This document shows, piece by piece, positions 67 to 17,399 of a stretch of 21,923 nt of DNA (its first letter is position 1; each line of letters begins with the position of its first letter). The notes beneath the pieces are model-generated. The model did no database searches, was not told where the DNA came from, and was given only the letters and a program-made list of their open reading frames with translations. The translations under genes were made by a program, and so were the position numbers. This stretch comes from a virus: IMG/VR virus record IMGVR_UViG_3300005753_000032, positions 1 to 21,923 of that record, one strand, 5' to 3'.

Positions 67-483
67 ATGAAAGTTTTTTTGGGCGGGACATGTAATGAAA
101 GCGCATGGCGAGATCATTTAATAAAACATCTCACCATAGACTATTTCAATCCTGTGGTCGATGATTGGACAGAGGACTGTATGGATGAGGAAATTAAGCA
201 AAGAGAAAATTGTGACATATGTCTTTATGCTATAACCCCTAAAATGACCGGCGTTTACTCTATTGCTGAAGTAGTTGACGATTCAAATAAAAGGCCGAAT
301 AAAACTGTTTTTTGTGTATTTGAGTTAGAAAACAATGGTGATAGATTTACCGACGGACAATTAAAAAGTCTAAAGCAGGTTAGTAAGATCGTAGAACTAA
401 ACGGTGGAAAATCATTCAGTGTATCATGTTATGAAGATATAGTTAAGATTGCAGATTACTTGAACACACTGAGAGTGGCATAA
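67..483 (+). CDS. Nucleoside 2-deoxyribosyltransferase-like protein
   Basis: This 138-residue protein resembles the nucleoside 2-deoxyribosyltransferase-like fold, whose members move or hydrolyse the N-glycosidic bond of (deoxy)nucleosides. The N-terminus VFLGGTCNESAWR is the usual first strand with a glycine-rich loop followed by a W-R pair. It is followed by DDWTED, by a CDICLYAITP strand, and by the segment GVYSIAEVV. The Glu in SIAE lies where the family's catalytic Glu sits. The length is normal for the family. A GAGGGTAGC sequence 8-16 bases upstream serves as ribosome binding site. Its role in the phage is unknown: nucleotide salvage, base modification, or degradation of a nucleotide signal are possibilities. 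The gene overlaps the next one by one base (TAATG). Confidence 0.7.
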   Translation: MKVFLGGTCNESAWRDHLIKHLTIDYFNPVVDDWTEDCMDEEIKQRENCDICLYAITPKMTGVYSIAEVVDDSNKRPNKTVFCVFELENNGDRFTDGQLKSLKQVSKIVELNGGKSFSVSCYEDIVKIADYLNTLRVA

Positions 484-641
484 TGAAATATCCTAAAGAA
501 ATTAAAAAATATATTTCAAATGCTAGATCTAATCGTGGGAAGAAAAACGGTGTTGTTAAATGTCTTTTTGATTATCCAGATATTGAACGAAAGATAGATA
601 ACAGCAAAAATAATTACAAAAGAAATAAATTAACAGGGTAG
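483..641 (+). CDS. Small basic hypothetical protein
   Basis: A 52-residue frame begins in the TAATG overlap with the preceding gene and ends at TAG 639-641, four bases before the next start. The product is strongly basic (many Lys, Arg and Asn; KYPKEIKKYISNARSNRGKK at its start) with no membrane segment or cysteine motif. Its tight fit between two real genes, with stop and start overlapping, supports it. The C-terminal codons contain the AGGG ribosome binding site of the next gene. The basic character would suit nucleic-acid binding, but that is only inference and the family is not recognised. Confidence 0.6.
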   Translation: MKYPKEIKKYISNARSNRGKKNGVVKCLFDYPDIERKIDNSKNNYKRNKLTG

Positions 642-645
642 CGTA

Positions 646-969
646 ATGAATAAAACACTAGAAAATTCAACAGTTTCAGGCGCAAGAAAAAATGTAGCTG
701 ATATAAATATCTTCGGAAACGGAGACACATTTAAACTAATCTGCAAAGCTAGCAGCAAAGCCGAGGGTTGGATGAAGTCAACTAAAGCTATGCATATTGA
801 CGGCGTTGGCTGCGTAGTGCAAGTAACGACACAACAAGGCGACAACGTGGCAGAAGCGTTGACTTTTGTGCCAGGGGTCGCAATTGAAGTCATCGATGGC
901 GATAAAAATAATGGTAGACGATTAATCCAGTCATTTATTAGATCAACTCCGATGCAGCACAAAGGCTAA
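646..969 (+). CDS. Conserved phage protein of unknown function
   Basis: This 107-residue soluble protein has no signal peptide or membrane segment. Its central block EGWMKSTKAM followed by GVGCVVQVTTQQ and VAEALTFVPG looks like a small beta-rich phage protein that I have seen in tailed phages next to lysis genes, where it has no assigned function. The ribosome binding site is AGGG about 8 bases upstream, in a context (AGGGTAGCGTAATG) almost identical to that before the gene at 67. The gene ends one base before the GTG of the next gene. The antisense strand also holds a 110-codon open frame here, but it lacks a start context and is a shadow. Confidence 0.7.
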   Translation: MNKTLENSTVSGARKNVADINIFGNGDTFKLICKASSKAEGWMKSTKAMHIDGVGCVVQVTTQQGDNVAEALTFVPGVAIEVIDGDKNNGRRLIQSFIRSTPMQHKG

Positions 970-970
970 T

Positions 971-1267
971 GTGGACGAGCGAAGAACAACGATACACTTA
1001 AATCATAGTCACATTGTGCCATTAACTGCTTTAACAGTTGTGTTATTTACAGTATTTATGGCTTTAATGTGGGTAATAATGAGCCAAATTTTACTGAGAG
1101 ATGCGCTCAAGGAAACAAAGACGGAGTTAAGAATAACGCAAATGCACTTACAAGATCAAAACGCTATTTTAATTAGAGCTGGAATTATAAAACCAGGCGA
1201 TTTAACAACCGGGCCAACAAACCCCGACAAAATGGAGATTAAAAAAGATGAGCGCGATACGCTGTAA
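971..1267 (+). CDS. Single-pass membrane protein with coiled-coil tail (lysis cassette)
   Basis: The gene starts with GTG at 971, immediately after the TAA of its neighbour, and encodes 98 residues. Residues 1-15 are polar. Residues 16-38 (PLTALTVVLFTVFMALMWVI) form one strong membrane segment. Residues 42-68 are heptad-like and probably coiled, and the tail is polar and proline-containing. This layout and the neighbouring holin and spanin genes suggest a lysis accessory protein, perhaps an antiholin or a small inner-membrane spanin-like factor. No catalytic motif is present, so it is not an endolysin. The 3' end overlaps the next gene by 20 bases and carries that gene's ribosome binding site. 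Confidence 0.65.
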   Translation: MDERRTTIHLNHSHIVPLTALTVVLFTVFMALMWVIMSQILLRDALKETKTELRITQMHLQDQNAILIRAGIIKPGDLTTGPTNPDKMEIKKDERDTL

Positions 1268-1457
1268 ATTACTACTATGCTCACTAGAAGCTCAAGCAGC
1301 ATCAAAAATAACAGAAGATTTTATTGAAGATATACTAGAATCTGGAGTTGTTTCATCGGTTAGCGATAATGCTTTAGCCAAGGCTTACATTTCAGTCCAG
1401 CAATACTACATCAAACAAATGAAAAACCTGAGCAGCGAGCTAACTGATGGCATCTAG
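1248..1457 (+). CDS. Small helical hypothetical protein
   Basis: The product has 69 residues, is soluble and probably all helical. It contains LEAQAASKITEDFIEDILES early and a second helix around AKAYISVQQYYIKQMKN. A GGAG motif nine bases before the ATG lies inside the preceding gene, and the two genes overlap by 20 bases. The next gene in turn overlaps its end by 11 bases, so the three genes look translationally coupled. No family is recognised. It may act with the flanking membrane proteins, but nothing in the sequence proves this. Confidence 0.6.
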   Translation: MSAIRCKLLLCSLEAQAASKITEDFIEDILESGVVSSVSDNALAKAYISVQQYYIKQMKNLSSELTDGI

Positions 1458-1707
1458 CAACTTGAAAAACCCGTGGAACGTGACTTTAACAATATTTTTG
1501 GTTACGAATATTGCTTTTTTTGGGGCTGCTTATGGTGCTTTTGCTAATCAGATGGAAAATGTTAATATTTCAATTATTGAAATAGTTAAAGAGCTAAAAA
1601 TAACTAACCAAGTTATTATCAATATGAAAGAAGCCGATATCAGGCTAAAGCTCAATCAAGAATACGCAATTGAACGAATTGAACGTATCGAGTCTAAAAT
1701 TAAATGA
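1447..1707 (+). CDS. Single-pass membrane protein, possible holin or lysis regulator
   Basis: This 86-residue protein has one membrane segment at about residues 11-33 (NVTLTIFLVTNIAFFGAAYG) followed by a 50-residue amphipathic helix rich in Ile, Glu and Lys. The shape matches several small phage membrane proteins that lie in lysis cassettes. Because the next gene is a better holin candidate, this one could be an antiholin or a lysis regulator. The start overlaps the previous gene by 11 bases. No strong Shine-Dalgarno sequence precedes it, so coupling is likely. Function is inferred only from position and topology. Confidence 0.6.
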   Translation: MASSNLKNPWNVTLTIFLVTNIAFFGAAYGAFANQMENVNISIIEIVKELKITNQVIINMKEADIRLKLNQEYAIERIERIESKIK

Positions 1708-1760
1708 GCAATCTAAACTTGAAAGACAGGCATGATCCAGCTTGAAATCGAGGTTATTAA

Positions 1761-1970
1761 ATGACAAAACTTGAAAAACAAATCAAAGGTGCAGCTAAAT
1801 CAAAAACAATGTATCTAGCATTAGCTTTATCTGTCTTGACACCTGCACTCGAAAACTTTCCAAATGTTGAATCGTTTTTAGGTGACAACTACGGTTGGGC
1901 TTTAGTGGCTCTAAGCATGTTGGTTGCTGGCTTGCGTTTCATCACGACAAAAGGGCTTGATGAAAAGTAA
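1761..1970 (+). CDS. Probable holin (two-TM, phage holin-like)
   Basis: This 69-residue protein has a short basic N-terminus (KLEKQIKGAAKSK) and two membrane segments, at about 17-33 and 44-62. They are separated by a loop with a conserved look (FPNVESFLGDNYGWALV). The C-terminal pattern LRFITTKGLDEK closely matches a family of short phage holins that I recall as ending in LRF.TT..L. Holins form inner-membrane lesions that set the time of lysis. A GAGG motif lies about 10 bases upstream. The stop overlaps the start of the next gene (TAATG). The 53 bases before it contain only frames of 10-13 codons. Confidence 0.75.
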   Translation: MTKLEKQIKGAAKSKTMYLALALSVLTPALENFPNVESFLGDNYGWALVALSMLVAGLRFITTKGLDEK

Positions 1971-2146
1971 TGTCTCACTTCAAGCGAAAGCGTCATCCGA
2001 ATGCTCGCGCAGGTTGTGCTATGTGCAAGCCCCAAAAAAAAGGCAAAGGCGCAAATCCAGATACTAAAGTTTGGCACAGGGGATTTGGAAAGATAAAATC
2101 ACTAATCAACGCAAAAACAGACATGAAAGATGATATTAGATTTTAA
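1970..2146 (+). CDS. Small basic CxxC phage protein
   Basis: The 58-residue frame begins in the TAATG overlap with the holin candidate and ends at TAA 2144-2146. The N-terminal half is very basic (MSHFKRKRHPNARAGC) and carries a single C-x2-C pair (Cys16, Cys19) followed by KPQKKGKGANP. Small proteins with this His-Arg-Pro-Asn-Ala-Arg start and one CxxCKP motif are common hypotheticals in tailed phages. With only two cysteines it might bind zinc as a dimer or not at all. It has no strong Shine-Dalgarno sequence and is probably coupled to the upstream gene. Confidence 0.6.
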   Translation: MSHFKRKRHPNARAGCAMCKPQKKGKGANPDTKVWHRGFGKIKSLINAKTDMKDDIRF

Positions 2147-2154
2147 AGGGTTTA

Positions 2155-2496
2155 ATGAAAATGTTTAGTGCAATAAAGATTAAGATAATAGCGGCACTCA
2201 CGGCCATAGGTGGGGTGCTACTCTTAATGCTTGGGTTAGAGCGCAGCAAGCGCAAAGCCGCAGAATTTAAAGCTAGAATAGAAGAATCAAACCGAAAGAA
2301 CTTAGAAGCTTCCGCAGCAGTTAATGAAAGTATCGAAAAAGAACGAAGAACATGGGATAAAAGCCAAAATGAAAGACACAGGCAAAACCTTAAAGAAATT
2401 GAAAAGTTGGACGATGAAAGTCTTAGTGACGCTGATTTTATCAATCAGTCTGCAAAGTTGCTCAAGCGTTCCAATAATCCAAAAAGAACACATTAA
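2155..2496 (+). CDS. i-spanin (Rz-like inner-membrane spanin)
   Basis: The product has 113 residues from ATG 2155, or 111 from ATG 2161. The second start has the better spacing from AAAGGG at 2146-2151. One N-terminal membrane segment at about residues 9-28 is followed by a long charged helix to about residue 95 (KRKAAEFKARIEESNRKN and onward), the usual anchor plus periplasmic coiled coil of an i-spanin. Spanins join inner and outer membranes and disrupt the outer membrane at the end of lysis. The matching lipoprotein is encoded in a second frame starting inside this gene at 2414, which is the classic Rz/Rz1 arrangement and strongly supports the call despite low sequence conservation. Confidence 0.75.
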   Translation: MKMFSAIKIKIIAALTAIGGVLLLMLGLERSKRKAAEFKARIEESNRKNLEASAAVNESIEKERRTWDKSQNERHRQNLKEIEKLDDESLSDADFINQSAKLLKRSNNPKRTH

Positions 2497-2683
2497 GATA
2501 CCAGCAAAGTACTTCCCTGGATGTTATTACAGCGAATTTGAGATTAGCGAAGATGCAAGCGATAATTTAAGAAAGTACGCAACTGAATTAATTTATTACA
2601 TTGGAGAATTAAAAATGGAAATAGATATTTGCGATAAAAATGATCAAGATGCGATGGAATATCAACAAAAGCTTACAAAGTAG
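2414..2683 (+). CDS. o-spanin (Rz1-like outer-membrane lipoprotein)
   Basis: The 89-residue protein starts at the ATG at 2414, inside the i-spanin gene in a different frame, and continues 187 bases beyond it. The N-terminus MKVLVTLILSISLQSC is a lipoprotein signal with Cys16 as the lipidated residue. The +2 and +3 residues are Ser, consistent with outer-membrane sorting. The mature part contains two prolines near its start (VPIIQ and IPAKYFPGC) and a charged helical C-terminus. The frame is open upstream to 2324, but that extension would place 30 charged residues before the signal peptide, so the internal ATG is preferred. It is expected to bind the i-spanin through the C-termini in the periplasm. 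Confidence 0.75.
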   Translation: MKVLVTLILSISLQSCSSVPIIQKEHIKIPAKYFPGCYYSEFEISEDASDNLRKYATELIYYIGELKMEIDICDKNDQDAMEYQQKLTK

Positions 2684-2786
2684 TGTATAATTAACTTGCC
2701 GGAATGCTGCAACACCGTTCAATGTAGCACTAGCCCCGAAGTTATCCTTTTCCTCGTGGATTTTTATTATATTTTAAGTAACACTC
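2684..2786. other. Unassigned intergenic DNA between convergent operons
   Basis: The rightward lysis genes and the leftward micro-gene operon converge here. On the plus strand, TATAAT at 2686-2691 with a poor -35 candidate (TCAACA, 18-base spacer) could make a weak promoter. Bases 2708-2731 can fold into a 6-bp stem (GCTGCA with TGTAGC, one G-U pair). A weak ATCC/GGAT stem at 2744-2761 runs into TTTTT and then an AT-rich tract, which may act as a poor terminator. On the minus strand a frame with protein-like composition is open but has no ATG. No tRNA or known RNA family is recognised. It may be a short non-coding RNA, a decayed gene or just a spacer. Confidence 0.25.
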
Positions 2787-2831
2787 TCAACCGACCAAGC
2801 GGAAATCTTTCACAATTTGTTGCATATTCAT
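2787..2831 (-). CDS. Possible 14-residue terminal micro-protein
   Basis: The frame encodes MNMQQIVKDFRLVG. It begins in an ATGA overlap with the stop of the 52-residue gene upstream and is the last link of the minus-strand chain of overlapping micro-genes. The chain-like overlap is the only support. There is no independent ribosome binding site beyond GAGGTAGATTAAAATG inside the preceding gene, and so short a frame could occur by chance. Confidence 0.3.
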   Translation of the reverse strand: MNMQQIVKDFRLVG

Positions 2832-2986
2832 TTTAATCTACCTCGCATATCATCTAAAATTTTAAAAAACATAGTTGTAGCAATAGCATCACCTGACATT
2901 ATCGATAACTGAACTAACTCAGGTAGACTGCACAATCGTTTAGCCACCATTTCTATTGCGAGTGTCTCTAAGTCATGAGTGCTCAT
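2828..2986 (-). CDS. 52-residue small protein of the minus-strand operon
   Basis: The sequence starts MSTHDLETLAIEMVAKRLCS and continues as a compact, probably all-helical protein of 52 residues with balanced charge and regularly spaced Leu, Ile and Met, which looks like a real globular mini-protein. It starts in an ATGA overlap with the 27-residue frame upstream. A GAGG motif just before the start is too close to be ideal, so translational reinitiation is likely. It has no cysteine motif or membrane segment and no recognised family. By position it belongs to the leftward early transcript. Confidence 0.6.
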   Translation of the reverse strand: MSTHDLETLAIEMVAKRLCSLPELVQLSIMSGDAIATTMFFKILDDMRGRLK

Positions 2987-3066
2987 ACCCTCGTACCATC
3001 TTGATATTTAGGGTTTAATGGCCGATAATCTCTGCGAGATCGAGTTAATATTTTTTTGATTTTCAT
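2983..3066 (-). CDS. 27-residue basic micro-protein
   Basis: This frame encodes a very basic peptide beginning MKIKKILTRSRRDYRPLNPK. A strong AGGAG ribosome binding site lies 9 bases before the ATG (AAAAAGGAGACCTAGAAAATG on the minus strand, read within the preceding frame). It overlaps both its neighbours by four bases (ATGA). The strong ribosome binding site with correct spacing is good evidence for translation despite the size. The peptide might act itself on nucleic acid or serve mainly to bring ribosomes to the next start. Function is unknown. Confidence 0.5.
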   Translation of the reverse strand: MKIKKILTRSRRDYRPLNPKYQDGTRV

Positions 3067-3113
3067 TTTCTAGGTCTCCTTTTTACATTAAAAATTCTAG
3101 TTGGTATTTTCAT
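3063..3113 (-). CDS. 16-residue micro-ORF, truncated copy of the 42-residue gene
   Basis: The frame encodes MKIPTRIFNVKRRPRK. It starts after a purine-rich stretch containing AGGGG and ends in an ATGA overlap with the next frame. Its first codons and the bases before them repeat the start region of the gene at 3325-3453 (25 bases at 3099-3123 and 3439-3463 with three differences), and the peptides align as M-K-x-x-T-[KR]-I-[YF]. It is best read as the remnant of a duplication that now serves as a leader peptide, or as a real micro-protein. Confidence 0.35.
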   Translation of the reverse strand: MKIPTRIFNVKRRPRK

Positions 3114-3116
3114 TTA

Positions 3117-3142
3117 CTTGATCCCCTCGATCCCTTCGATCC
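3117..3142. repeat. Short tandem GATC-containing repeat
   Basis: On the minus strand three imperfect units follow each other: GGATCGAA, GGGATCGA and GGGGATCAA. Each holds a GATC site, and the third supplies the purine-rich ribosome binding site before the 16-residue frame. The repeat could have arisen by slippage. The three GATC sites in 26 bases would be close-set Dam targets in a Dam-positive host. Confidence 0.5.
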
Positions 3143-3328
3143 TTAAAACTTAATAATTTTTTTACAAACAATGCATCGTTTTTGCTGTCCACCGCTTATC
3201 TTTTCTGAGACAACTCCATACGCTCTCCCGTTAAAATCAGTACTTTGAGTCACTCTCTCAACAAATACAACATAATACCCTGAAACATCTTTGCAATGAT
3301 GGCATCTAATATGATCCCCAGTGCTCAT
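3143..3328 (-). CDS. Small zinc-ribbon protein
   Basis: This 61-residue protein has two C-x2-C knuckles, Cys9/Cys12 (RCHHC) and Cys52/Cys55 (RCIVC), at the two ends of a short beta-rich core. That is the layout of a four-cysteine zinc ribbon. Such proteins often bind nucleic acid or a host protein such as RNA polymerase. The start overlaps the stop of the 42-residue gene (ATGA), and GCGGGGGAAAAATC upstream provides a purine-rich ribosome binding site. A plus-strand open frame at 3296-3484 overlaps its start but has no ribosome binding site and is a shadow. The specific function is unknown; a role in redirecting the host is an inference from position in the leftward operon. Confidence 0.7.
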   Translation of the reverse strand: MSTGDHIRCHHCKDVSGYYVVFVERVTQSTDFNGRAYGVVSEKISGGQQKRCIVCKKIIKF

Positions 3329-3453
3329 GATTTTTCCCCCGCTGATCTCGCTGACATTAAAAGCACATACAAATTAGTATGTGCGCCCTGGAATTTAGCA
3401 CCGATGAAGTACCACATCCGATTATTTTTGTATATTTTAGTTGATGTTTTCAT
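3325..3453 (-). CDS. 42-residue small protein of the minus-strand operon
   Basis: The frame begins MKTSTKIYKNNRMWYFIGAK and ends in an ATGA overlap with the zinc-ribbon gene. Its start lies 17 bases inside the 44-residue membrane-protein gene upstream. The middle is aromatic-rich (MWYF) and the C-terminus is polar. There is a weak ribosome binding site (AGAGATCAAG) at suitable distance. The start region is duplicated 340 bases further on in the operon. No family is recognised. Confidence 0.5.
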   Translation of the reverse strand: MKTSTKIYKNNRMWYFIGAKFQGAHTNLYVLLMSARSAGEKS

Positions 3454-3571
3454 TTGCTTGATCTCTAAAACTCGGCATCGATAGGTAATTATCATCAAAA
3501 AAGCTGGATGCTACGTCAGCAATGATTGACAGCGTGATGACTATCAAGTAAATGTTCATTAAGTTTTCCAT
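3437..3571 (-). CDS. 44-residue single-pass membrane micro-protein
   Basis: The product starts MENLMNIYLIVITLSIIADV. Residues 3-22 form one membrane segment and the remaining 22 residues are acidic and polar. A clear ribosome binding site, CGGAG, lies 7 bases before the ATG. It is the first gene after the intrinsic terminator at 3606-3626, so it depends on terminator read-through or on a promoter I could not identify. Small phage membrane proteins in early operons often act in superinfection exclusion or host membrane control, but that is only a general possibility here. Confidence 0.6.
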   Translation of the reverse strand: MENLMNIYLIVITLSIIADVASSFFDDNYLSMPSFRDQANENIN

Positions 3572-3605
3572 GTTATTCTCCGTTAATTTTCGATTAGTTT
3601 CACCC

Positions 3606-3626
3606 AAAAACCCCAATTAAGGGGTT
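3606..3626 (-). terminator. Intrinsic terminator of the minus-strand operon
   Basis: Read on the minus strand, AACCCC and GGGGTT form a 6-bp stem around the loop TTAATT, and the stem is followed by TTTTT. It lies 8 bases beyond the stop of the 81-residue gene. It would separate the proximal genes (3635-4457) from the distal micro-genes (2787-3571), making the latter subject to read-through or antitermination. Confidence 0.65.
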
Positions 3627-3634
3627 ATGGTTTA

Positions 3635-3880
3635 TTAATGGATAGCGATATAATACTTGCCGTTTTCTAATCCTAGTTTTAACTCAATTAGCTGGTCTTT
3701 TAAATCAACGATATATCCAACTTCACTCCCGGTTTTATGGGCAAGCTCATAAGTTCTGTGGCGACTTAAAACATTACCGTACGTGTCGTAAGATCTATTT
3801 ATTATTGCACTAGCATGAGTAAATCCTTGATTTAACATTTTTTGGATATCTTTTATATTTGTTATTTTAAGCGTTTTCAT
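3635..3880 (-). CDS. 81-residue hypothetical protein
   Basis: The protein is soluble, mixed alpha/beta by appearance, and begins MKTLKITNIKDIQKMLNQGF. The segment HKTGSEVGYIVDLKDQLIEL followed by NGKYYIAIH at the C-terminus suggests a small beta sheet. A purine-rich GAGAATTGAG sequence lies before the ATG. It is the third gene of the leftward transcript, followed directly by the intrinsic terminator. No family is recognised and no cysteine or catalytic motif stands out. Confidence 0.65.
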   Translation of the reverse strand: MKTLKITNIKDIQKMLNQGFTHASAIINRSYDTYGNVLSRHRTYELAHKTGSEVGYIVDLKDQLIELKLGLENGKYYIAIH

Positions 3881-3904
3881 TTTCTCAATTCTCTTTTTGT
3901 TTGT

Positions 3905-3956
3905 AAATTAACTTAATCATGCTCCAGATCCTGGAGCATTGTTAAATTAACTTAAT
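3905..3956. repeat. Perfect inverted repeat flanked by 13-bp direct repeats
   Basis: ATGCTCCAG (3919-3927) and CTGGAGCAT (3931-3939) form a perfect 9-bp stem with a 3-base loop. Identical 13-bp sequences AAATTAACTTAAT flank it at 3905-3917 and 3944-3956; the right copy overlaps the stop codon of the 96-residue gene. No T-run follows, so it is a poor rho-independent terminator. It could be an RNA-processing or stability hairpin, or a protein-binding site. The TTAACTTA core recurs at 4512-4519 and 4547-4554 in the control region. Confidence 0.6.
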
Positions 3957-4237
3957 TGTTGACTTAGCTTAATCTCCTCTTGAAACCCAAGATTTGTTAA
4001 AAAGTAATCTTTTTTATAGTCAAAAGGACTTGTGTTGAATTCTCTTTTGTCGACAAGGGCAAAGATAATTTCGTCGTAAGCTAGCTTAGTTATTTTAACT
4101 ATTTTATCAGTCCACTCAACAAAATAACCGTTTCCGAATTCGCTTTGATCGGATAGCTCAATTATTGCAGCGTCATTAACACATACTCTTATCGTGTTTG
4201 TTATTTCGTTTAGTATCTGGGTGTTTAATATATCCAT
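3947..4237 (-). CDS. 96-residue hypothetical protein
   Basis: The product begins MDILNTQILNEITNTIRVCV. Its central part contains ELSDQSEFGNGYFVEWTDKI, which looks like two beta strands with a turn, and the C-terminal third is helical (FLTNLGFQEEIKLSQQLS). It is acidic overall and has one cysteine. AAGGGG lies about 9 bases before the ATG and is a good ribosome binding site. It is the second gene of the leftward operon, 25 bases after the 64-residue gene. No family is recognised. Confidence 0.7.
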   Translation of the reverse strand: MDILNTQILNEITNTIRVCVNDAAIIELSDQSEFGNGYFVEWTDKIVKITKLAYDEIIFALVDKREFNTSPFDYKKDYFLTNLGFQEEIKLSQQLS

Positions 4238-4262
4238 TTTCTTGACCCCTTTTTAGTACGTT

Positions 4263-4457
4263 TTAAGCAAGCTCTAGAAGAGAAATGCTAACGTTTTTTA
4301 CTTGTCCATCAACAACAAATTCCGGCATTGATGAGGTGTCGTCATTATGAATAACGATTATTTGACCAGCTCGGACCGGGTACATATCTTCAATAACTTT
4401 AAATTGAGTTACGCCTTCTTCGATTTCAGTGTTGAATTTTTCATTTATTGCGCTCAT
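4263..4457 (-). CDS. 64-residue acidic protein, first gene of the leftward operon
   Basis: This small acidic protein begins MSAINEKFNTEIEEGVTQFK and continues with a beta-rich stretch (GQIIVIHNDD and PEFVVDGQVKNVSISLLEL), so it is probably a small beta barrel or sandwich. A CGGAG ribosome binding site lies 7 bases before the ATG. It is the first gene after the leftward promoter at 4500-4528 and would be among the earliest leftward products. Acidic early phage proteins are sometimes DNA mimics, but nothing here beyond charge suggests that. No family is recognised. Confidence 0.65.
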   Translation of the reverse strand: MSAINEKFNTEIEEGVTQFKVIEDMYPVRAGQIIVIHNDDTSSMPEFVVDGQVKNVSISLLELA

Positions 4458-4499
4458 TTTTTCTCCGTTTTTGTTTAGTTAATCTCTCGACTTGCAACT

Positions 4500-4528
4500 A
4501 TTGTATATCAATTAACTTACAATAGCAA
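4500..4528 (-). promoter_or_regulatory. Leftward promoter/operator, copy 1 of a 30-bp element
   Basis: On the minus strand -35 TTGCTA (4523-4528), a 17-base spacer and -10 TACAAT (4500-4505) form a sigma70-type promoter with predicted start near 4493, 36 bases before the first leftward gene. The spacer contains TGTAAGTTAATTGATA, which is nearly the same in the two rightward copies, and CTT...GTAAG at its upstream end forms a short inverted repeat. This suggests a shared operator overlapping the -35. Confidence 0.7.
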
Positions 4529-4563
4529 GTCTTATTTGTAAATAGATTAACTTATTTTAAAAC

Positions 4564-4592
4564 TTTACAATGTAAGCTAGCTAATATACAAT
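4564..4592 (+). promoter_or_regulatory. Rightward promoter/operator, copy 2, for the Cro-like gene
   Basis: The -35 TTTACA (4564-4569), 17-base spacer and -10 TACAAT (4587-4592) match the other two copies. The predicted transcription start falls at or within a base or two of the ATG at 4599, so the mRNA should be leaderless. CTTTACAATGTAAG at 4563-4576 is close to a perfect inverted repeat and is the candidate operator. It lies back to back with the leftward promoter. Confidence 0.7.
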
Positions 4593-4598
4593 AGACAA

Positions 4599-4781
4599 AT
4601 GCAAACAATCAAATTAATCGATCACATCGACAAGCATTACAAAACTAAATCAGATGCAGCAATAGCACTGGGTTCTAAACGTCAATCATTAAATAATATG
4701 CTCAACACTGGCATTAGAGTAGCGCAATTAACTGATGGCACTTACATAACAATAAATAAATCAAATAAAGAGTTTAAATAG
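4599..4781 (+). CDS. Cro-like helix-turn-helix regulator
   Basis: The 60-residue protein has the size and shape of the lambda Cro family. A short N-terminal strand/helix (QTIKLIDHIDKHY) is followed by a helix-turn-helix at about 17-37 (KSDAAIALGSKRQSLNNMLN) and a C-terminal beta hairpin (DGTYITI). It should bind the operators in the three surrounding promoters as a dimer and control the choice between leftward and rightward transcription. The gene has no Shine-Dalgarno sequence, and the -10 box ends only six bases before the ATG, so the message is predicted to be leaderless, like lambda cI from PRM. The stop codon directly precedes the third promoter. A repressor partner is not visible unless the HTH gene at 5826 serves as one. 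Confidence 0.75.
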   Translation: MQTIKLIDHIDKHYKTKSDAAIALGSKRQSLNNMLNTGIRVAQLTDGTYITINKSNKEFK

Positions 4782-4782
4782 C

Positions 4783-4811
4783 TTGACGATGTAAGTCAGT
4801 TGATATACAAT
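4783..4811 (+). promoter_or_regulatory. Rightward promoter/operator, copy 3, for the packaging block
   Basis: The -35 TTGACG (4783-4788), 17-base spacer and -10 TACAAT (4806-4811) give the strongest match to the sigma70 consensus among the three copies. The predicted start is near 4818, followed by AAAGGAG and the ATG at 4834. The spacer TGTAAGTCAGTTGATA differs from copy 1 at only two positions. Confidence 0.75.
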
Positions 4812-7331: not shown

Positions 7332-10040
7332 ATGGACTGGCAAAACCCCGACTACACTGAAGTATTTAGAGAACGCCAATTAAGGCTCGATAAAGTACGC
7401 TCTAATCCTATTTTGCTCCAAGCAATGAAGAAGCATTACAAGAATAATCCGTGGGACTTCATCAACGACTGGGGTATGACATTTGACCCCAGACAGGTCG
7501 AAAAAGGTCAGTTAGCAAACATTCCCTTCGTTTTATGGCCAAGACAAACAGATTTTTTGTATTGGATGGACGAAAGATGGAAAGCGGGAGAGTACGGAAT
7601 AGTCGAGAAGTCGAGAGATTGTGGGGTTACTTGGCTATCAGTTGGCTTTTGTTGTACTCAGTGGCTATTCAACTCAGGATTCAGTGCTGGATTTGGCTCA
7701 GCTAAAGAAACTAAAGTTGATAAAAAGGGCGACCCAGATTGTATATTTGAAAAGATACGCTTCTTTATCAATAATATTCCGAAAGAATTCTTACCTAAAG
7801 ATTTTAATCTAAACATTCACTCTTCGTTCATGAAGCTATCAAATCCAGAAAACGGGGCAACTATCACTGGAGACTCAGGGTTACAAATAGGTCGTGGCGG
7901 TAGAAAAGCCTTGACTCTTGAAACCCCAGTACTAACAACTGGTGGATGGAAGAAAAATGGTGAATTATCACTTAATGATTGTGTTATAAATAACAGTGGA
8001 AAGCCAACTAGAATCATAGGTATTCAAGATCATGGAAGAAGGAAAGTATATAGGGTTGGCTTCGATGACGGAACATCAGTTAAATGTTGTGGCGATCACT
8101 TATGGACTGTAACCACTAGATCAATACGTAAAGCAAATGGCAGAAGCACTAACGAAAAGCGAAGAACACCACATAATATCACGCTGTCTACAAATGAAAT
8201 GGTTGATAATGTATTGGTTAAAAGAAAAGACGATAACAAAGAATATCAATATCAAATACCAATTACCGCACCTGTAGTATTTCAAGAAAAAGATTTACCT
8301 TTAGATCCATATCTTTTAGGTTTATTACTTGGTGATGGATGTATGCCTTATACAGTCAATATTGTTAACAGTGAACCAGAGATAATCAAAGAAATAGAAG
8401 ATCGAGTACCAGAAGGGATATCCGTATCTCATGCAGGAATAACACATCGTTTAGTTGATTACAGTGCTGGTGGGCCAAAAAGAAGTAAAATGAAAATCAT
8501 ACTTGATTCTCTTGGGGTAAGAAATTGTCTCGCTCCCACGAAGTTTGTGCCAAAGAAATATTTATTTAATTCAATCGAAAATCGATTATTAATACTGCAA
8601 GGATTGTTAGATACCGATGGATGGGTGAGTAAACGCAAAGGCGCGGGAAAGGTTTGTTTTGCTAGTGCGTCGATACAGCTAGCAAAAGACGTTCAATTTT
8701 TAGCCCAATCATTAGGCGGGGTTGCTACGCTACGCACAAAAAAAACCACACATTTAGATTCCCATGAAATAATCCTTGCTATGCCTGACGGGATCAACCC
8801 TTTCAAATTAACGAGGAAAGCCGAAAGAGTTAAAACAAGAGCTTTATATCAACCAAGACGTTCGATTATCTCTATAGAACCTGATGGAACAGAACCTGTT
8901 AGGTGCATTACAGTAGAAAACGATAACGGACTATATTTATGCAATGATTTTATTGTGACTCACAATAGCGTATGGATAATAGACGAGGCGGCATTCATCG
9001 AAAATCAACAAGCCGCTGATAACGCGATAAGTCAAGCAACAAACTGTCACATCGATGTAAGCACTTACAATGGCAACGGTAATGTATTTTACAGAAAGTC
9101 CCTTAAATTTGAAGGTACAAAGCATAAATTTATCTTTGATTGGAGACAAGACCCACGAAAAGATGATGCTTGGTATGCTAAGCAAAAGGCAGAAAAAGAC
9201 CCGATAACAGTTGCTCAAGAGATTGATCGCGATCCGAATGCTTCACAGAGCGACTCATTTATACCGGCAGATTATGTTAGAGCGGCGGTTGACTTACACA
9301 AACTAATAAAAATACCACCGTCCGGAGTTAGAGCGACAGGCTTCGATCCAGCGGATGAAGGCGATGCAAAAGCAGTTGTTTCAAAGTATGGATATATTAT
9401 TCAATCCGCCGAAATGATGAAAGACGGCGATATTACACAAGCAATCCCGTGGGCTTATCAGCAAGCATTCAATAATCATTCTCAATTTTTAAGTTATGAT
9501 GCGGACGGAATGGGCGCGCCGGTCATGAAATTAACATTAGATTCGTATGCAGCGGGTAACATGCCTATCTTGCCTTATTATGGATCAGGCGAAGTTGTGG
9601 ACAAGAAAAAACATTTGACAAATGGTGAAGGTATACCCGATAAAACACTTAAAACTAACGGAGATACCTATCTAAACTATCGAGCGCAGACGGCAACATG
9701 GTTATATGATCGGTTTAAAGCGTCATACGATGTTAGAACTCAAATTGAATCAGGCGGTGTAGCACTTGGAGTTGATGCAGATAAAATTATATCTATTGAT
9801 TCCACTTGCGTTCATTCTTTTGAATTAATAGCTGAACTATCAAGACCTAAACGAGTATGGACTAACAACGGTAAGATAAAGGTCGAATCTAAGAAAGAAA
9901 TGAAGAAGCGAGGGGTGGAGTCACCTAATTTATTTGACGCTCTTGTTATAGTTAACGCAATCAAAGCCCCAAGCCCCACAGCAATTAGACGATATAAAAC
10001 ACGAAGCATTAAAATCAGAGACAAAGGGGTTGGAATGTGA
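7332..10040 (+). CDS. terL: Terminase large subunit interrupted by an intein
   Basis: The 902-residue precursor should splice to a 549-residue packaging ATPase/nuclease. The first extein holds a degenerate Walker A, KSRDCGVTW (93-101). The second begins SVWIIDEAAF, the Walker B with Asp551 and Glu552. The nuclease domain shows GFDPADEGD (Asp672), YDADGMG (Asp723/Asp725) and NLFDAL (Asp869). Residues 193-545 are an intein placed after GRGGRK, just before Walker B, where it would inactivate the motor unless spliced out. TerL cuts concatemers and drives DNA into proheads with TerS and the portal. The start follows directly on the exonuclease stop. A peptide at 614-642 (WYAK...EIDRDPNASQ) is echoed in the scaffolding protein. 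Confidence 0.93.
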   Translation: MDWQNPDYTEVFRERQLRLDKVRSNPILLQAMKKHYKNNPWDFINDWGMTFDPRQVEKGQLANIPFVLWPRQTDFLYWMDERWKAGEYGIVEKSRDCGVTWLSVGFCCTQWLFNSGFSAGFGSAKETKVDKKGDPDCIFEKIRFFINNIPKEFLPKDFNLNIHSSFMKLSNPENGATITGDSGLQIGRGGRKALTLETPVLTTGGWKKNGELSLNDCVINNSGKPTRIIGIQDHGRRKVYRVGFDDGTSVKCCGDHLWTVTTRSIRKANGRSTNEKRRTPHNITLSTNEMVDNVLVKRKDDNKEYQYQIPITAPVVFQEKDLPLDPYLLGLLLGDGCMPYTVNIVNSEPEIIKEIEDRVPEGISVSHAGITHRLVDYSAGGPKRSKMKIILDSLGVRNCLAPTKFVPKKYLFNSIENRLLILQGLLDTDGWVSKRKGAGKVCFASASIQLAKDVQFLAQSLGGVATLRTKKTTHLDSHEIILAMPDGINPFKLTRKAERVKTRALYQPRRSIISIEPDGTEPVRCITVENDNGLYLCNDFIVTHNSVWIIDEAAFIENQQAADNAISQATNCHIDVSTYNGNGNVFYRKSLKFEGTKHKFIFDWRQDPRKDDAWYAKQKAEKDPITVAQEIDRDPNASQSDSFIPADYVRAAVDLHKLIKIPPSGVRATGFDPADEGDAKAVVSKYGYIIQSAEMMKDGDITQAIPWAYQQAFNNHSQFLSYDADGMGAPVMKLTLDSYAAGNMPILPYYGSGEVVDKKKHLTNGEGIPDKTLKTNGDTYLNYRAQTATWLYDRFKASYDVRTQIESGGVALGVDADKIISIDSTCVHSFELIAELSRPKRVWTNNGKIKVESKKEMKKRGVESPNLFDALVIVNAIKAPSPTAIRRYKTRSIKIRDKGVGM
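7908..8966 (+). mobile_element. Intein (class 3-like, Ala1) with LAGLIDADG homing endonuclease
   Basis: The element encodes 353 residues (193-545 of the precursor). Block A reads ALTLETPVLTTGGW, with Ala instead of Cys or Ser at position 1. Block B is GDHLWTV (Trp258). Block F is VRCITVE with Cys525 where most inteins have Asp. Block G is FIVTHN with Thr543 before the penultimate His and terminal Asn545, and the +1 residue is Ser. Non-nucleophile position 1 together with this Trp-Cys-Thr set is the mark of class 3 inteins, in which the block F Cys starts splicing. Two LAGLIDADG motifs, YLLGLLLGDGC (327-337) and LLQGLLDTDGW (near 421-431), make up an apparently intact homing endonuclease. Confidence 0.88.
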
Positions 10041-10607: not shown

Positions 10608-13007
10608 GTGGCTCAATTAACGCCACAATCATCTGAACCATCTGACGGGCTTCCTATAGAAATCGATGAGCTTATAGCGCAACTCGATTTACTTGGATTG
10701 AAACTAGCAAAAACTCGCTCTGAATCTATTGAAGGTCGTGAAAACTCAGGAATAGAGGAAGAGTGGCTGGAAGACGAGGAATACTACGAAGGGCTTGACG
10801 ATGCTAATCGCGGAGAACTTCACGCATGGATAGACAAGCCTTTAGGTCAATCTAGCCCGCTAGATGGTGATGAAGATGAAAGCACTGGATCAACTATATT
10901 TCTGAACATCACCCGCCCATATGTGGATGCTTCATCAGCAAGAATAGGTGATATGTTATTCCCCTCTGAAGAAAGAGGATATGCGGTCAAAGTTACACCA
11001 AAGCCAGAACTAGCAGATTTATCAGAGGGGGTGATGGATTCCGATCAGCGCTATGAAAACGTGATGGATAATCCAAAAGACCCTAAAAAACAAGATGAAT
11101 CTGCTATAAACAAAATGGATGATGCTAAAGCAGAAATCCAGAAAATGAAAGATGCGGCTAAAAAAGCAGAAGATCAGATATGGGATTGGCATGTAGAAAG
11201 TGGTTTTCAAGCGCAGAATCGAAGATTAATTGAAGATGCGGCAAAAGTAGGTACTGGAATATTAAAAGGGCCTATTCCGACCAGAAAACAAAAAACCATA
11301 TTTATTGATGGCGAGCTACAAAAAATAAGCTCAATAAAACCAGCGTCATTTAGAATATTTTACCGTAATTTTTTTCCTGATTCAGCATGTGGCGAAGATA
11401 TTCAAGATGGAAATCATACCTGGGAAAGAGACTATATTACAGATTCTTTTTTAATAAAATTAATTGGGACTCCTAACTATCTAGATTTTCAGATCATAAA
11501 GTGCATAAAGGAAGGCCCCCAACAAGCAACGAAAGAATATTCAACCGATCAAGATAGACCCGGATTAAAACCTAATACAGACGCTCAAAGAAATATATAT
11601 GAAATATGGTATCACTATGGATTGATTAAAAGCTCAGAGTTACTTAATATTGATATTTTATCCAAAAAAAAAGATTGCGAAGAAGCCGATGAAGAGTGGG
11701 TAAACATTCACTTAATCATGGTTAATAATCGAGTAATCAAAGCAACATTATCTCACGCTAAAGATGGCGACTTCCCTTACGATGTTATGAATTGGCAGCG
11801 CAGAATAGGTATGCCTTGGGGTGCTGGTGTTGCAAGACAAATAAGACCTGCACAACGCATGGTGGTTGGGGCAATTAGGCACATGATGGATAACTCTGGC
11901 ATTGCTGGAGGCCCTATGGCTTTTATCGATACAACCGTTGTTCAAGCGGCAGATGGTGTTAATGAGATAAAACCTTGGAAAATATTTATTCCCGCTGAGG
12001 ATTATGAAAATAATGGTGCTGATAAAACACACGTAAGTGAAGCTATACAATTTATTCAAGCACCTATGATGCAGCAAGAAATGCAAAACATCGTTCAACT
12101 CGGCTTAAGAATGGCTGAGGATGTAACTGGAATGCCTCAGATAATGCAAGGTCAGACTAATCAAAGAACGCCTGAAACTTTGGGCGGCATGGTATTGCAA
12201 AACAACAACGCTTCAACCGTTTTAAGAAGAATGGCTAGAATTTATGATGATTATATTACTATTCCACACATCAAAAGGTATTATCAGTATATTTTAGAAT
12301 ATGTTGATGATGATTCAATGAAAGGTGATGTTAGTATTCAAGCTCTAGGATCATCTAGTTTGATTGAGCGTGAAATTGCCGATCAAGCAGTTACTCAGAT
12401 GTCAGAATTAGTTCTTAATCCTATGTTTGGTAAAGATCCAAAAAAATGGATAAACGAGATATTTAGGATCAATAAAATAAATCCTAGCAAGCTAGACTAC
12501 GAAGATGAAGAATGGAAAGGTGTTGTTGAGCAAATGAGCCAACCACAAGCTGATCCAAAGCTTGAGATTGCACAAATGAAAATGCAGTCCGATCAACAAA
12601 TGGCTCAATTTAAAACTAAGTCTGAGCAACAATTCCAGCAAATAAAGATCCAGTCAGAGCAAGAAATGGCACAATTTAAGATTAAATCTGACCAGCAAAT
12701 GGAGCAGTTCCAGACTCAAAGTAAAGAAAGGTTATTACAAATTGAAGGACAACTCAAAGCAGAAGAATCAGGAAGAGGTCGCGAGCATGAAGCCGCGATA
12801 CTTCAATTCACGAAAGAGATTGATATTCATGTTAAACAAATGGGAGAGGCGGGGTCTAATGAACGCAACTTGCAGACGATTAAACAAAAGTTACAAGATA
12901 CGGTCATGAAATTAAAAGCACAAATTCAATTAAATGATCGAGAAGTCACCACGCCACCAGTCGAACCAGCGGGACGCGCTCCTGATGGGCAGTCGTATCA
13001 GAAATAG
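10608..13007 (+). CDS. Portal protein (large podovirus type)
   Basis: The 799-residue protein starts with GTG directly after its neighbour's TAG. Its position between terminase and scaffold/capsid genes and its N-terminal pattern support a portal: STIFLNITRPYVDASSARIG, then DMLFPSEERGYAVKVTPKPE. Further support comes from MPWGAGVARQIRPAQRMV and GMPQIMQGQTNQRTPETLGG, motifs common in large portals of podoviruses. Portals form the dodecameric ring through which TerL pumps DNA. Residues 656-721 form six consecutive 11-residue repeats predicted to be a long coiled coil, an unusual C-terminal extension. A further helical and then Pro-rich tail follows. The 700-800 residue size is at the large end for the family. 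Confidence 0.82.
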   Translation: MAQLTPQSSEPSDGLPIEIDELIAQLDLLGLKLAKTRSESIEGRENSGIEEEWLEDEEYYEGLDDANRGELHAWIDKPLGQSSPLDGDEDESTGSTIFLNITRPYVDASSARIGDMLFPSEERGYAVKVTPKPELADLSEGVMDSDQRYENVMDNPKDPKKQDESAINKMDDAKAEIQKMKDAAKKAEDQIWDWHVESGFQAQNRRLIEDAAKVGTGILKGPIPTRKQKTIFIDGELQKISSIKPASFRIFYRNFFPDSACGEDIQDGNHTWERDYITDSFLIKLIGTPNYLDFQIIKCIKEGPQQATKEYSTDQDRPGLKPNTDAQRNIYEIWYHYGLIKSSELLNIDILSKKKDCEEADEEWVNIHLIMVNNRVIKATLSHAKDGDFPYDVMNWQRRIGMPWGAGVARQIRPAQRMVVGAIRHMMDNSGIAGGPMAFIDTTVVQAADGVNEIKPWKIFIPAEDYENNGADKTHVSEAIQFIQAPMMQQEMQNIVQLGLRMAEDVTGMPQIMQGQTNQRTPETLGGMVLQNNNASTVLRRMARIYDDYITIPHIKRYYQYILEYVDDDSMKGDVSIQALGSSSLIEREIADQAVTQMSELVLNPMFGKDPKKWINEIFRINKINPSKLDYEDEEWKGVVEQMSQPQADPKLEIAQMKMQSDQQMAQFKTKSEQQFQQIKIQSEQEMAQFKIKSDQQMEQFQTQSKERLLQIEGQLKAEESGRGREHEAAILQFTKEIDIHVKQMGEAGSNERNLQTIKQKLQDTVMKLKAQIQLNDREVTTPPVEPAGRAPDGQSYQK
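12573..12770 (+). repeat. Six 33-bp (11-residue) repeats in the portal gene
   Basis: In frame units read QMKMQSDQQMA, QFKTKSEQQFQ, QIKIQSEQEMA, QFKIKSDQQME, QFQTQSKERLL and QIEGQLKAEES. The pattern Q-[hydrophobic]-K-x-[QK]-S-[DE]-Q-[QE]-[hydrophobic]-x repeats exactly every 11 residues, the hendecad spacing of right-handed or straight coiled coils. The first four units also pair as two 22-residue doubles. The DNA is diverged between units, so selection on protein rather than recent slippage is suggested. Confidence 0.85.
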
Positions 13008-16185: not shown

Positions 16186-16662
16186 ATGTTAAATCCCAAC
16201 TTAAATAATGGCGGGACTCTATGTTTCTCCAAGGTAGCTTTAGTAGCTGGTACGACTACAACGTATACCACAACTGTCGCTACAGATTACATCATTGACG
16301 GCAAGTTTGGCGTACAGTTCGCGACTAAAACAAATCAAGCCGTCCCTTCTACTGATGCAAATACAGGTGCAGCATTTCCCGTAGTGGCGGACGATAAAGG
16401 CATGGCTTTAGTATTTGGAATTAATGCCGCTGGGGCTGTTCAATTAGTACAAGGCGATATTAAAGACTTAGAGGTTGGCACTCTTGAATTTAAGATAGCA
16501 CCGCCATTCCCTAGCTTTCCAGATGATTTCTGCCCTATAGGGTATGTAATTTGCAAGAATGATAGCGGCAGTGATTACACTGTCGGTACTACTAACTGGG
16601 CTGATATTGATGTCACGTTTGTCAATATTGCTATGATGCCCGATAGACCTCAAGAAAGCTAG
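16186..16662 (+). CDS. Probable capsid decoration or head-associated protein
   Basis: The 158-residue protein starts 14 bases after the capsid gene with its own AGGAG ribosome binding site. It is rich in Thr, Val, Ala and Gly and forms beta strands by appearance (CFSKVALVAGTTTTYTTTVA, GMALVFGINAAGAVQLVQGD, EVGTLEFKIAPPFPSFPDDF). Such proteins directly downstream of N4-gp56-type capsid genes are usually minor head or cementing proteins. The assignment rests on position and composition. Its TAG overlaps the GTG of the HNH gene by one base. Confidence 0.6.
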   Translation: MLNPNLNNGGTLCFSKVALVAGTTTTYTTTVATDYIIDGKFGVQFATKTNQAVPSTDANTGAAFPVVADDKGMALVFGINAAGAVQLVQGDIKDLEVGTLEFKIAPPFPSFPDDFCPIGYVICKNDSGSDYTVGTTNWADIDVTFVNIAMMPDRPQES

Positions 16663-17399
16663 TGACTATTAATAGTAAAGATTGTTCTCTTTGTGGGGTT
16701 AATAAACCTCATAAAGAGTTCTCTTTGTTTCCGAACAAAAAGCATAAGCCGCATTGTAAGTCATGTCATGCTGGCAATTCTAAAGAATATTATTATCGTA
16801 ATAAAGATATCATTAAAAAAAATAGAAAAATTGCTTATGATGCTGGAAATAAAACTTTACCTAACTATTGTCTGCCCGCAGATAAAGCATGTTCTAAATG
16901 CGGGTCAATAAAACTACTTGATGAATTTTCTATAAGCTCTGATAGAAAATTTGGACGTAAAAGTGCTTGCAAGGTGTGTATGTCTATGGGCAATAAGGCT
17001 TATTATCAAAAAAATAGAGAATCTATGTTAAAAAAAGAAAGAGATAGGTATCACGACAAATCTGGAAATGCCAAAGAAACAAAAATCAAATACTTAAAAA
17101 ATAATTTAGGATCTAATAATGCGAGTAGCACAAGACGTTATGCAGATAAACTAAATGCAGTTCCCAGGTGGGCTGATTTAAGTGTGATCAAGGGTATATA
17201 CGAATATTCAAGATTGAAAACATTAATAACAAAAGTTAAGCATCACGTAGATCACATTATACCGCTGCAACATAAACTGGTTTGTGGTCTACACACAGAA
17301 GCAAACTTACAAGTGATTACCGCTACTGATAATCAACGTAAGTCAAACAGATTCATTCCTGGTTATCAGGTGGATCTTAACATTTATTCCCCCTCTTAA
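16662..17399 (+). CDS. HNH homing endonuclease with two zinc-binding motifs
   Basis: This 245-residue protein has two tandem four-cysteine units: Cys8/11/32/35 (CSLCG...CKSC) and Cys77/80/103/106 (CSKCG...CKVC). A basic linker and a C-terminal HNH nuclease follow: HHVDHIIPL (194-202), GLHTEANLQV and TDNQRKSNRF, with His195, Asn215 and Asn224 as likely catalytic residues. It begins with GTG overlapping the preceding stop, so it inserted without harming its neighbour. The codons look less like those of the flanking structural genes and more AT-rich. Free-standing HNH genes in phage structural modules are mobile and spread by cutting related phages that lack them. A GC hairpin lies over its stop codon. 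Confidence 0.85.
   Translation: MTINSKDCSLCGVNKPHKEFSLFPNKKHKPHCKSCHAGNSKEYYYRNKDIIKKNRKIAYDAGNKTLPNYCLPADKACSKCGSIKLLDEFSISSDRKFGRKSACKVCMSMGNKAYYQKNRESMLKKERDRYHDKSGNAKETKIKYLKNNLGSNNASSTRRYADKLNAVPRWADLSVIKGIYEYSRLKTLITKVKHHVDHIIPLQHKLVCGLHTEANLQVITATDNQRKSNRFIPGYQVDLNIYSPS

Follow-up and report, generated by a model that had tools for sequence, protein, structure and literature searches.

The minus strand of this uncultured bacterial virus, a marine phage, carries about seven very small genes in a tight row within 785 bases (positions 2787-3571 of the window, which is the whole stretch analysed and a complete virus record of 21,923 bp). The chain is a real, unusually compact set of micro-genes whose known kind is the orphan small genes found in phage accessory slots, and it forms the distal part of a ten-gene minus-strand block. 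With a probability of roughly 0.55, it makes up the promoter-distal end of a leftward operon of accessory (moron-type) genes between the lysis and terminase genes. This reading draws on a chain of SD-led frames beyond chance, on the enrichment of ATGA overlaps, and on the fold of F52 and the CxxC pair of C61; it draws further on a promoter-like module common to both sides of a divergent region, on a position and strand like those of lambda bor, and on a closest relative that lacks the block but has a small-gene chain of its own upstream of TerS.

The lengths and positions of the seven frames reported in the first-pass annotation proved exact: 44, 42, 61, 16, 27, 52 and 14 codons for A44 (3437-3571), B42 (3325-3453), C61 (3143-3328), D16 (3063-3113), E27 (2983-3066), F52 (2828-2986) and G14 (2787-2831), all on the minus strand. 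That most of them are joined by ATGA overlaps is correct for four of the six junctions (B42/C61, D16/E27, E27/F52 and F52/G14), but not for A44 and B42, which overlap by 17 nt, or for C61 and D16, which are separated by a 29-nt gap, and the distances from A44 to G14 are -17, -4, +29, -4, -4 and -4 nt. Overlaps of 4 or 1 nt, taken as the sign of translational coupling, are thus present at four of six junctions, all of them of 4 nt, a spacing for which translational coupling has been demonstrated (PMC10666635, PMC6728339). Four of the 7 chain frames stop within an ATGA, a context seen at 7.8% of the ends of chance ORFs across the window (P about 0.001).

Strong ribosome binding sites (SDs) precede six of the seven starts, bearing out the earlier description of several good sites (CGGAG at A44, AGGAG at E27). 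Anti-SD pairing energies from A44 to G14 are -6.6, -2.9, -8.6, -8.0, -8.7, -6.4 and -7.2 kcal/mol, only B42 being weak; these values were computed with an E. coli-like anti-SD, which may differ from that of the host. An energy of about -6.3 kcal/mol is reached by only 4-8% of other ATGs and six of the seven chain starts lie at -6.4 or better, giving a binomial P of about 1e-6 for a set of frames that was partly picked by ribosome binding site in the first reading. A shuffle test for SD-led chains accounts for this choice, and none of 2,000 dinucleotide shuffles held a chain of at least four SD-led ORFs, compared with the six observed. When any ATG start was accepted, irrespective of SD, chain length was only mildly unusual (P 0.017); since equal chains arise in 1.7% of shuffles, the open frames alone prove little and the starts are decisive. 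A scan for SD-led chains in the window and about 120 related-phage loci, 2.57 Mb of strand sequence in all, returned this chain only. In stretches of T4, T7, lambda and SPO1, chains limited to ORFs of at most 65 codons have three SD-led starts at best, and with ORFs up to 130 codons the number per chain rises to four and five in T4 and T7 and to six in the closest relative, indicating that small-gene packing is ordinary in phages and that genes this tiny are less so. Small SD-led frames chained as closely as these are very unlikely to arise by chance.

The best single candidates are F52 and C61, the most likely functional proteins of the chain. F52 is the best-supported protein of the chain; its codon score is the most gene-like among the chain frames, and a single-sequence model made without an alignment predicts a bundle of three helices (pLDDT 84.8), for which a fold search returned no known fold at E<=0.001. 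C61 was annotated earlier as a four-cysteine zinc ribbon. The four cysteines and two CxxC knuckles are there in the translation (C9/C12 and C52/C55, CxxC-X39-CxxC), and two CxxC motifs occur in 0.19% of shuffled ORFs of 40-90 aa, but the ribbon is not backed by a family profile or fold match, with nothing above threshold in Pfam, weak signals in PHROGs and no usable fold match, so that C61 is best called a candidate zinc ribbon. Its single-sequence model was poor (pLDDT 48.5), and its fold search was dropped for that reason. The proposed one-TM micro-protein corresponds to a hydrophobic stretch in the acidic A44 (residues 7-25), whose KD19 peak of 2.09 is not significant alone, because the window is AT-rich and a value of 1.9 is attained by 5 of 56 chance ORFs in it; a single TM helix is plausible, not proven. 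E27 is strongly basic (net charge +7) and has the strongest SD of the chain, which sits in the 3' end of D16. D16 and G14 more probably serve as leader or coupling peptides, and G14, the last frame of the chain, is doubtful as a protein. B42, a basic product with no clear SD of its own, is the weakest member.

Local repeats mark several of these starts. On the minus strand, a 30-nt repeat at 3434-3463, spanning the A44/B42 junction, is identical at 26 of 30 positions to 3094-3123, which spans the start of D16, so that the B42 start together with the A44 end is duplicated at the D16 start. Because the best match in 60 shuffles was 23/30, part of the block is taken to be a product of local duplication. 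A 9-nt tandem repeat (3120-3142) lies at and upstream of the D16 SD, and GATCAAGNAAATGAAAA has two exact copies at starts in the block and looser ones at three more starts. The latter recalls the start-associated sequences of Cluster K mycobacteriophages, a 13-bp repeat present in many copies per genome at the starts of unrelated genes (PMC3203893); unlike those, GATCAAGNAAATGAAAA has only two good copies, which one duplication could explain.

The cluster is bigger than first noted, as three further minus-strand genes lie upstream of the chain at 4457-3635: up64 (4263-4457, 64 aa), the first gene of the operon, with an SD of -6.6 and the highest codon score of the block; up96 (3947-4237, 96 aa), with an SD of -7.3 and gene-like codon usage; and up81 (3635-3880, 81 aa), also with gene-like codon usage. 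A putative leftward operon promoter (4500-4528, minus strand, TTGCTA-17-TACAAT) is part of a repeated module, TGTAAGTYARYTGATATACAAT, that combines with a -35-like hexamer at 17 nt in three copies, one leftward and two rightward, where none is expected in shuffles. The second copy is a putative divergent promoter (4564-4592, plus strand) preceding a 60-aa HTH-like gene (4599-4781), and the third lies at 4783-4811 (plus strand). Such a repeated module ahead of the operon makes phage-regulated transcription likely, judged from sequence. An IMG/VR search for an exact match to the module elsewhere returned none. These promoter- or operator-like copies (4498-4594 and 4782-4811) flank the divergent HTH-like gene and run in both orientations. 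Between up81 and A44 lies a terminator-like hairpin (3609-3626, AACCCC-TTAATT-GGGGTT, T-rich thereafter on the minus strand); promoter and hairpin alike are consensus matches, and the count of terminator-like sites is not above that in shuffles. No convincing terminator was found after the chain, and for structured RNA there was no Rfam match and folding z-scores were close to zero, both for the chain and at its end. A second hairpin, TGCTCCAGGATCTGGAGCA, flanked by two copies of TTAAGTTAATTTA at 3904-3954 between up96 and up81, is a possible operator or processing site.

These features suggest how the operon might work. Transcription would start at the module promoter near 4500 and read up64, up96 and up81, and the leftward polycistronic mRNA would pass the weak hairpin into the chain. 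Ribosomes would load at individual SDs, with probable reinitiation at the four ATGA overlaps, and such coupled reinitiation would cause neighbouring products to be made together. A small membrane protein may be made from A44 and a small basic peptide from E27, while B42, having no SD of its own, would either depend on coupling or not be made. Our best guess at a role is a non-essential tuning of the relation between host and phage, through exclusion, host-factor binding or regulation. The 30-nt repeat suggests that the block took shape through local duplication where translation starts, and the products of the block would be replaced too quickly for homologues to remain detectable.

The genomic setting is that of an accessory cassette, as the block is inserted between conserved late modules, with spanin genes and TerS as its flanks, and did not turn up in the relatives examined. 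The plus-strand spanin genes end at 2683 and are followed by the minus block; beyond it come the HTH-like 60-aa gene, TerS (4972), an HTH_3 protein, an exonuclease, an intein-bearing TerL, a portal gene and capsid genes. The closest relative found, NVWB01000056.1 (TerL 82%, MCP 90%), is a contig binned in a Blastopirellula MAG; it lacks the minus block and has instead a plus-strand chain of 18 small ORFs ahead of TerS. The block is also absent from the other relatives examined, and its absence together with the different small-gene chain in the closest one indicates that this region turns over quickly. Phages of this sort commonly exchange accessory genes at such a position. Some of the ORFs in NVWB01000056.1, a member of the same phage group, have 1-4 nt overlaps as here, but that chain is on the plus strand, has larger genes (26-115 codons) and has no sequence similarity to ours. 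One of its ORFs (chain at 96-4310 of locus L128) ends in CPCNSGKKFKKCC, which has the look of a SEC-C motif. The archetype of such morons is lambda bor and its minus-strand neighbour, where, as here, minus-strand accessory genes directly follow Rz/Rz1 and, on the lambda map, precede the terminase genes. The difference is that lambda has two ordinary minus-strand genes for unrelated proteins, whereas there are ten small genes here, seven of them chained.

The first-pass annotation likened the chain to an early host-takeover or anti-defence locus. On this reading, which we consider possible but unlikely, proteins made right after infection would bind host or defence targets. Dense small genes, repeated and likely phage-controlled promoters and a zinc-ribbon-like protein speak for it, as do the small early genes of T4 and T7, which form looser chains. 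The SPO1 host-takeover module and the T4 and T7 early genes are likewise clusters of small, mostly orphan genes; these are mostly larger, less overlapped and set amid early genes, and some have known takeover functions, which none has here. However, the locus lies on the opposite strand between late lysis and packaging genes with no recognised early or replication gene adjacent, no clear early or replication region was recognised in the 21.9-kb fragment, and searches of the chain products against PADLOC, Pfam, NCBIfam and PHROGs found no match to a defence, anti-defence or takeover family. Nothing found favours early takeover over an accessory or lysogeny-related role.

Less likely still, and in our view doubtful, is an operon that regulates lysogeny, in which a switch would be built from the leftward genes together with the HTH-like gene that diverges from them (4599-4781), with the small proteins as antirepressor- or MOR-like partners. 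The divergent promoters share one module in inverted copies, the relatives found lie in bacterial genome assemblies, and small phage antirepressors are known (PMC11323111). Against it, the gene is only weakly assigned as HTH (lambda Cro at BLASTP E 0.11; PHROG E 0.19), and no integrase or full CI-like repressor could be recognised within the 21.9 kb.

Codon usage speaks against an accessory operon, and it bears on the improbable reading that the frames arose by chance in a non-coding or decaying stretch, with only C61 and F52, or none, as genes. After correction for composition, the chain frames pooled together give 0.00 bits per codon, below every sampled piece of the real genes of the same phage (0.149 +/- 0.058) and below the three upstream genes (0.098), whereas sets of shadow ORFs average -0.13 +/- 0.06 and 1% of them reach the score of the chain. 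Codon usage therefore backs translation of the chain only weakly; the low score would be compatible with short, foreign or young genes, and equally with a mixture of real and spurious frames. The lack of homologues, the P of 0.017 for chain length alone and the local 9-nt and 30-nt repeats, which suggest a restless region, add to the case for chance frames, but six strong SDs in register, the outcome of the 2,000 shuffles and the F52 fold argue against it. A plus-strand ORF at 3296-3484 was considered as an alternative and set aside, as it lacks an SD and its codon score is neutral.

Homologues of the chain frames were sought widely. None was found by tblastn (E up to 10) against collections of phages and plasmids, in 369 genomes from the class of a Pseudomaricurvus genome, or in about 120 related loci and the closest relative; IMG/VR pattern scans for C61, up96, F52 and TerS, a method that can reach close relatives only, likewise gave no homologue of a chain frame. 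Purifying selection on the frames accordingly left no visible trace, a point against the accessory reading. Weak E27 and F52 matches in some TerL loci fall within unrelated longer ORFs, and a match of the A44 start to T4-like phages (E 0.6, about 40 nt) is a chance similarity at a start region. The earlier expectation of undescribed functions holds insofar as none of the products matches a described family in the collections searched, while the role itself is a guess. That the micro-proteins (membrane, zinc-ribbon, basic and three-helix) would form one machine made in fixed ratio by termination-reinitiation and directed at an undescribed process of the host or a rival phage strikes us as quite improbable. 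The least credible reading is that alternating, overlapping frames reflect a single longer gene broken up in a metagenomic contig by frameshifts from sequencing or assembly, since scans of the three whole minus frames revealed no PHROG family running across several ORFs and most starts have their own SD, which is unexpected in a split gene.

An accessory operon of translated micro-genes would mean that about 0.8 kb of phage DNA yields five to seven proteins with no family in the libraries searched. Three of the frames (16, 27 and 14 codons) are shorter than the smallest gene that widely used gene finders accept by default. If translated, the chain would be a compact natural system in which to test serial translational coupling and the renewal of accessory genes in phages. 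As orphan small phage genes its members join a large known class, with over 2 million small phage genes reported (PMC11323111).

Several other features of the window were observed. A nucleoside 2-deoxyribosyltransferase-like protein (67-483, Pfam E 4.6e-11) is encoded near the lysis genes. The TerL intein (7332-10040, residues about 194-545), absent from the closest relatives, apparently begins with Ala and ends in THN|S with a Cys nearby; these termini presumably resemble those of class 3 inteins of phage terminases. Among the structural genes, 16662-17399 may encode an HNH endonuclease; it has CxxC pairs, and its Pfam match falls just short of the cut-off. Finally, tandem 33/66-nt repeats (12570-12698) lie within the portal gene, in its C-terminal part.
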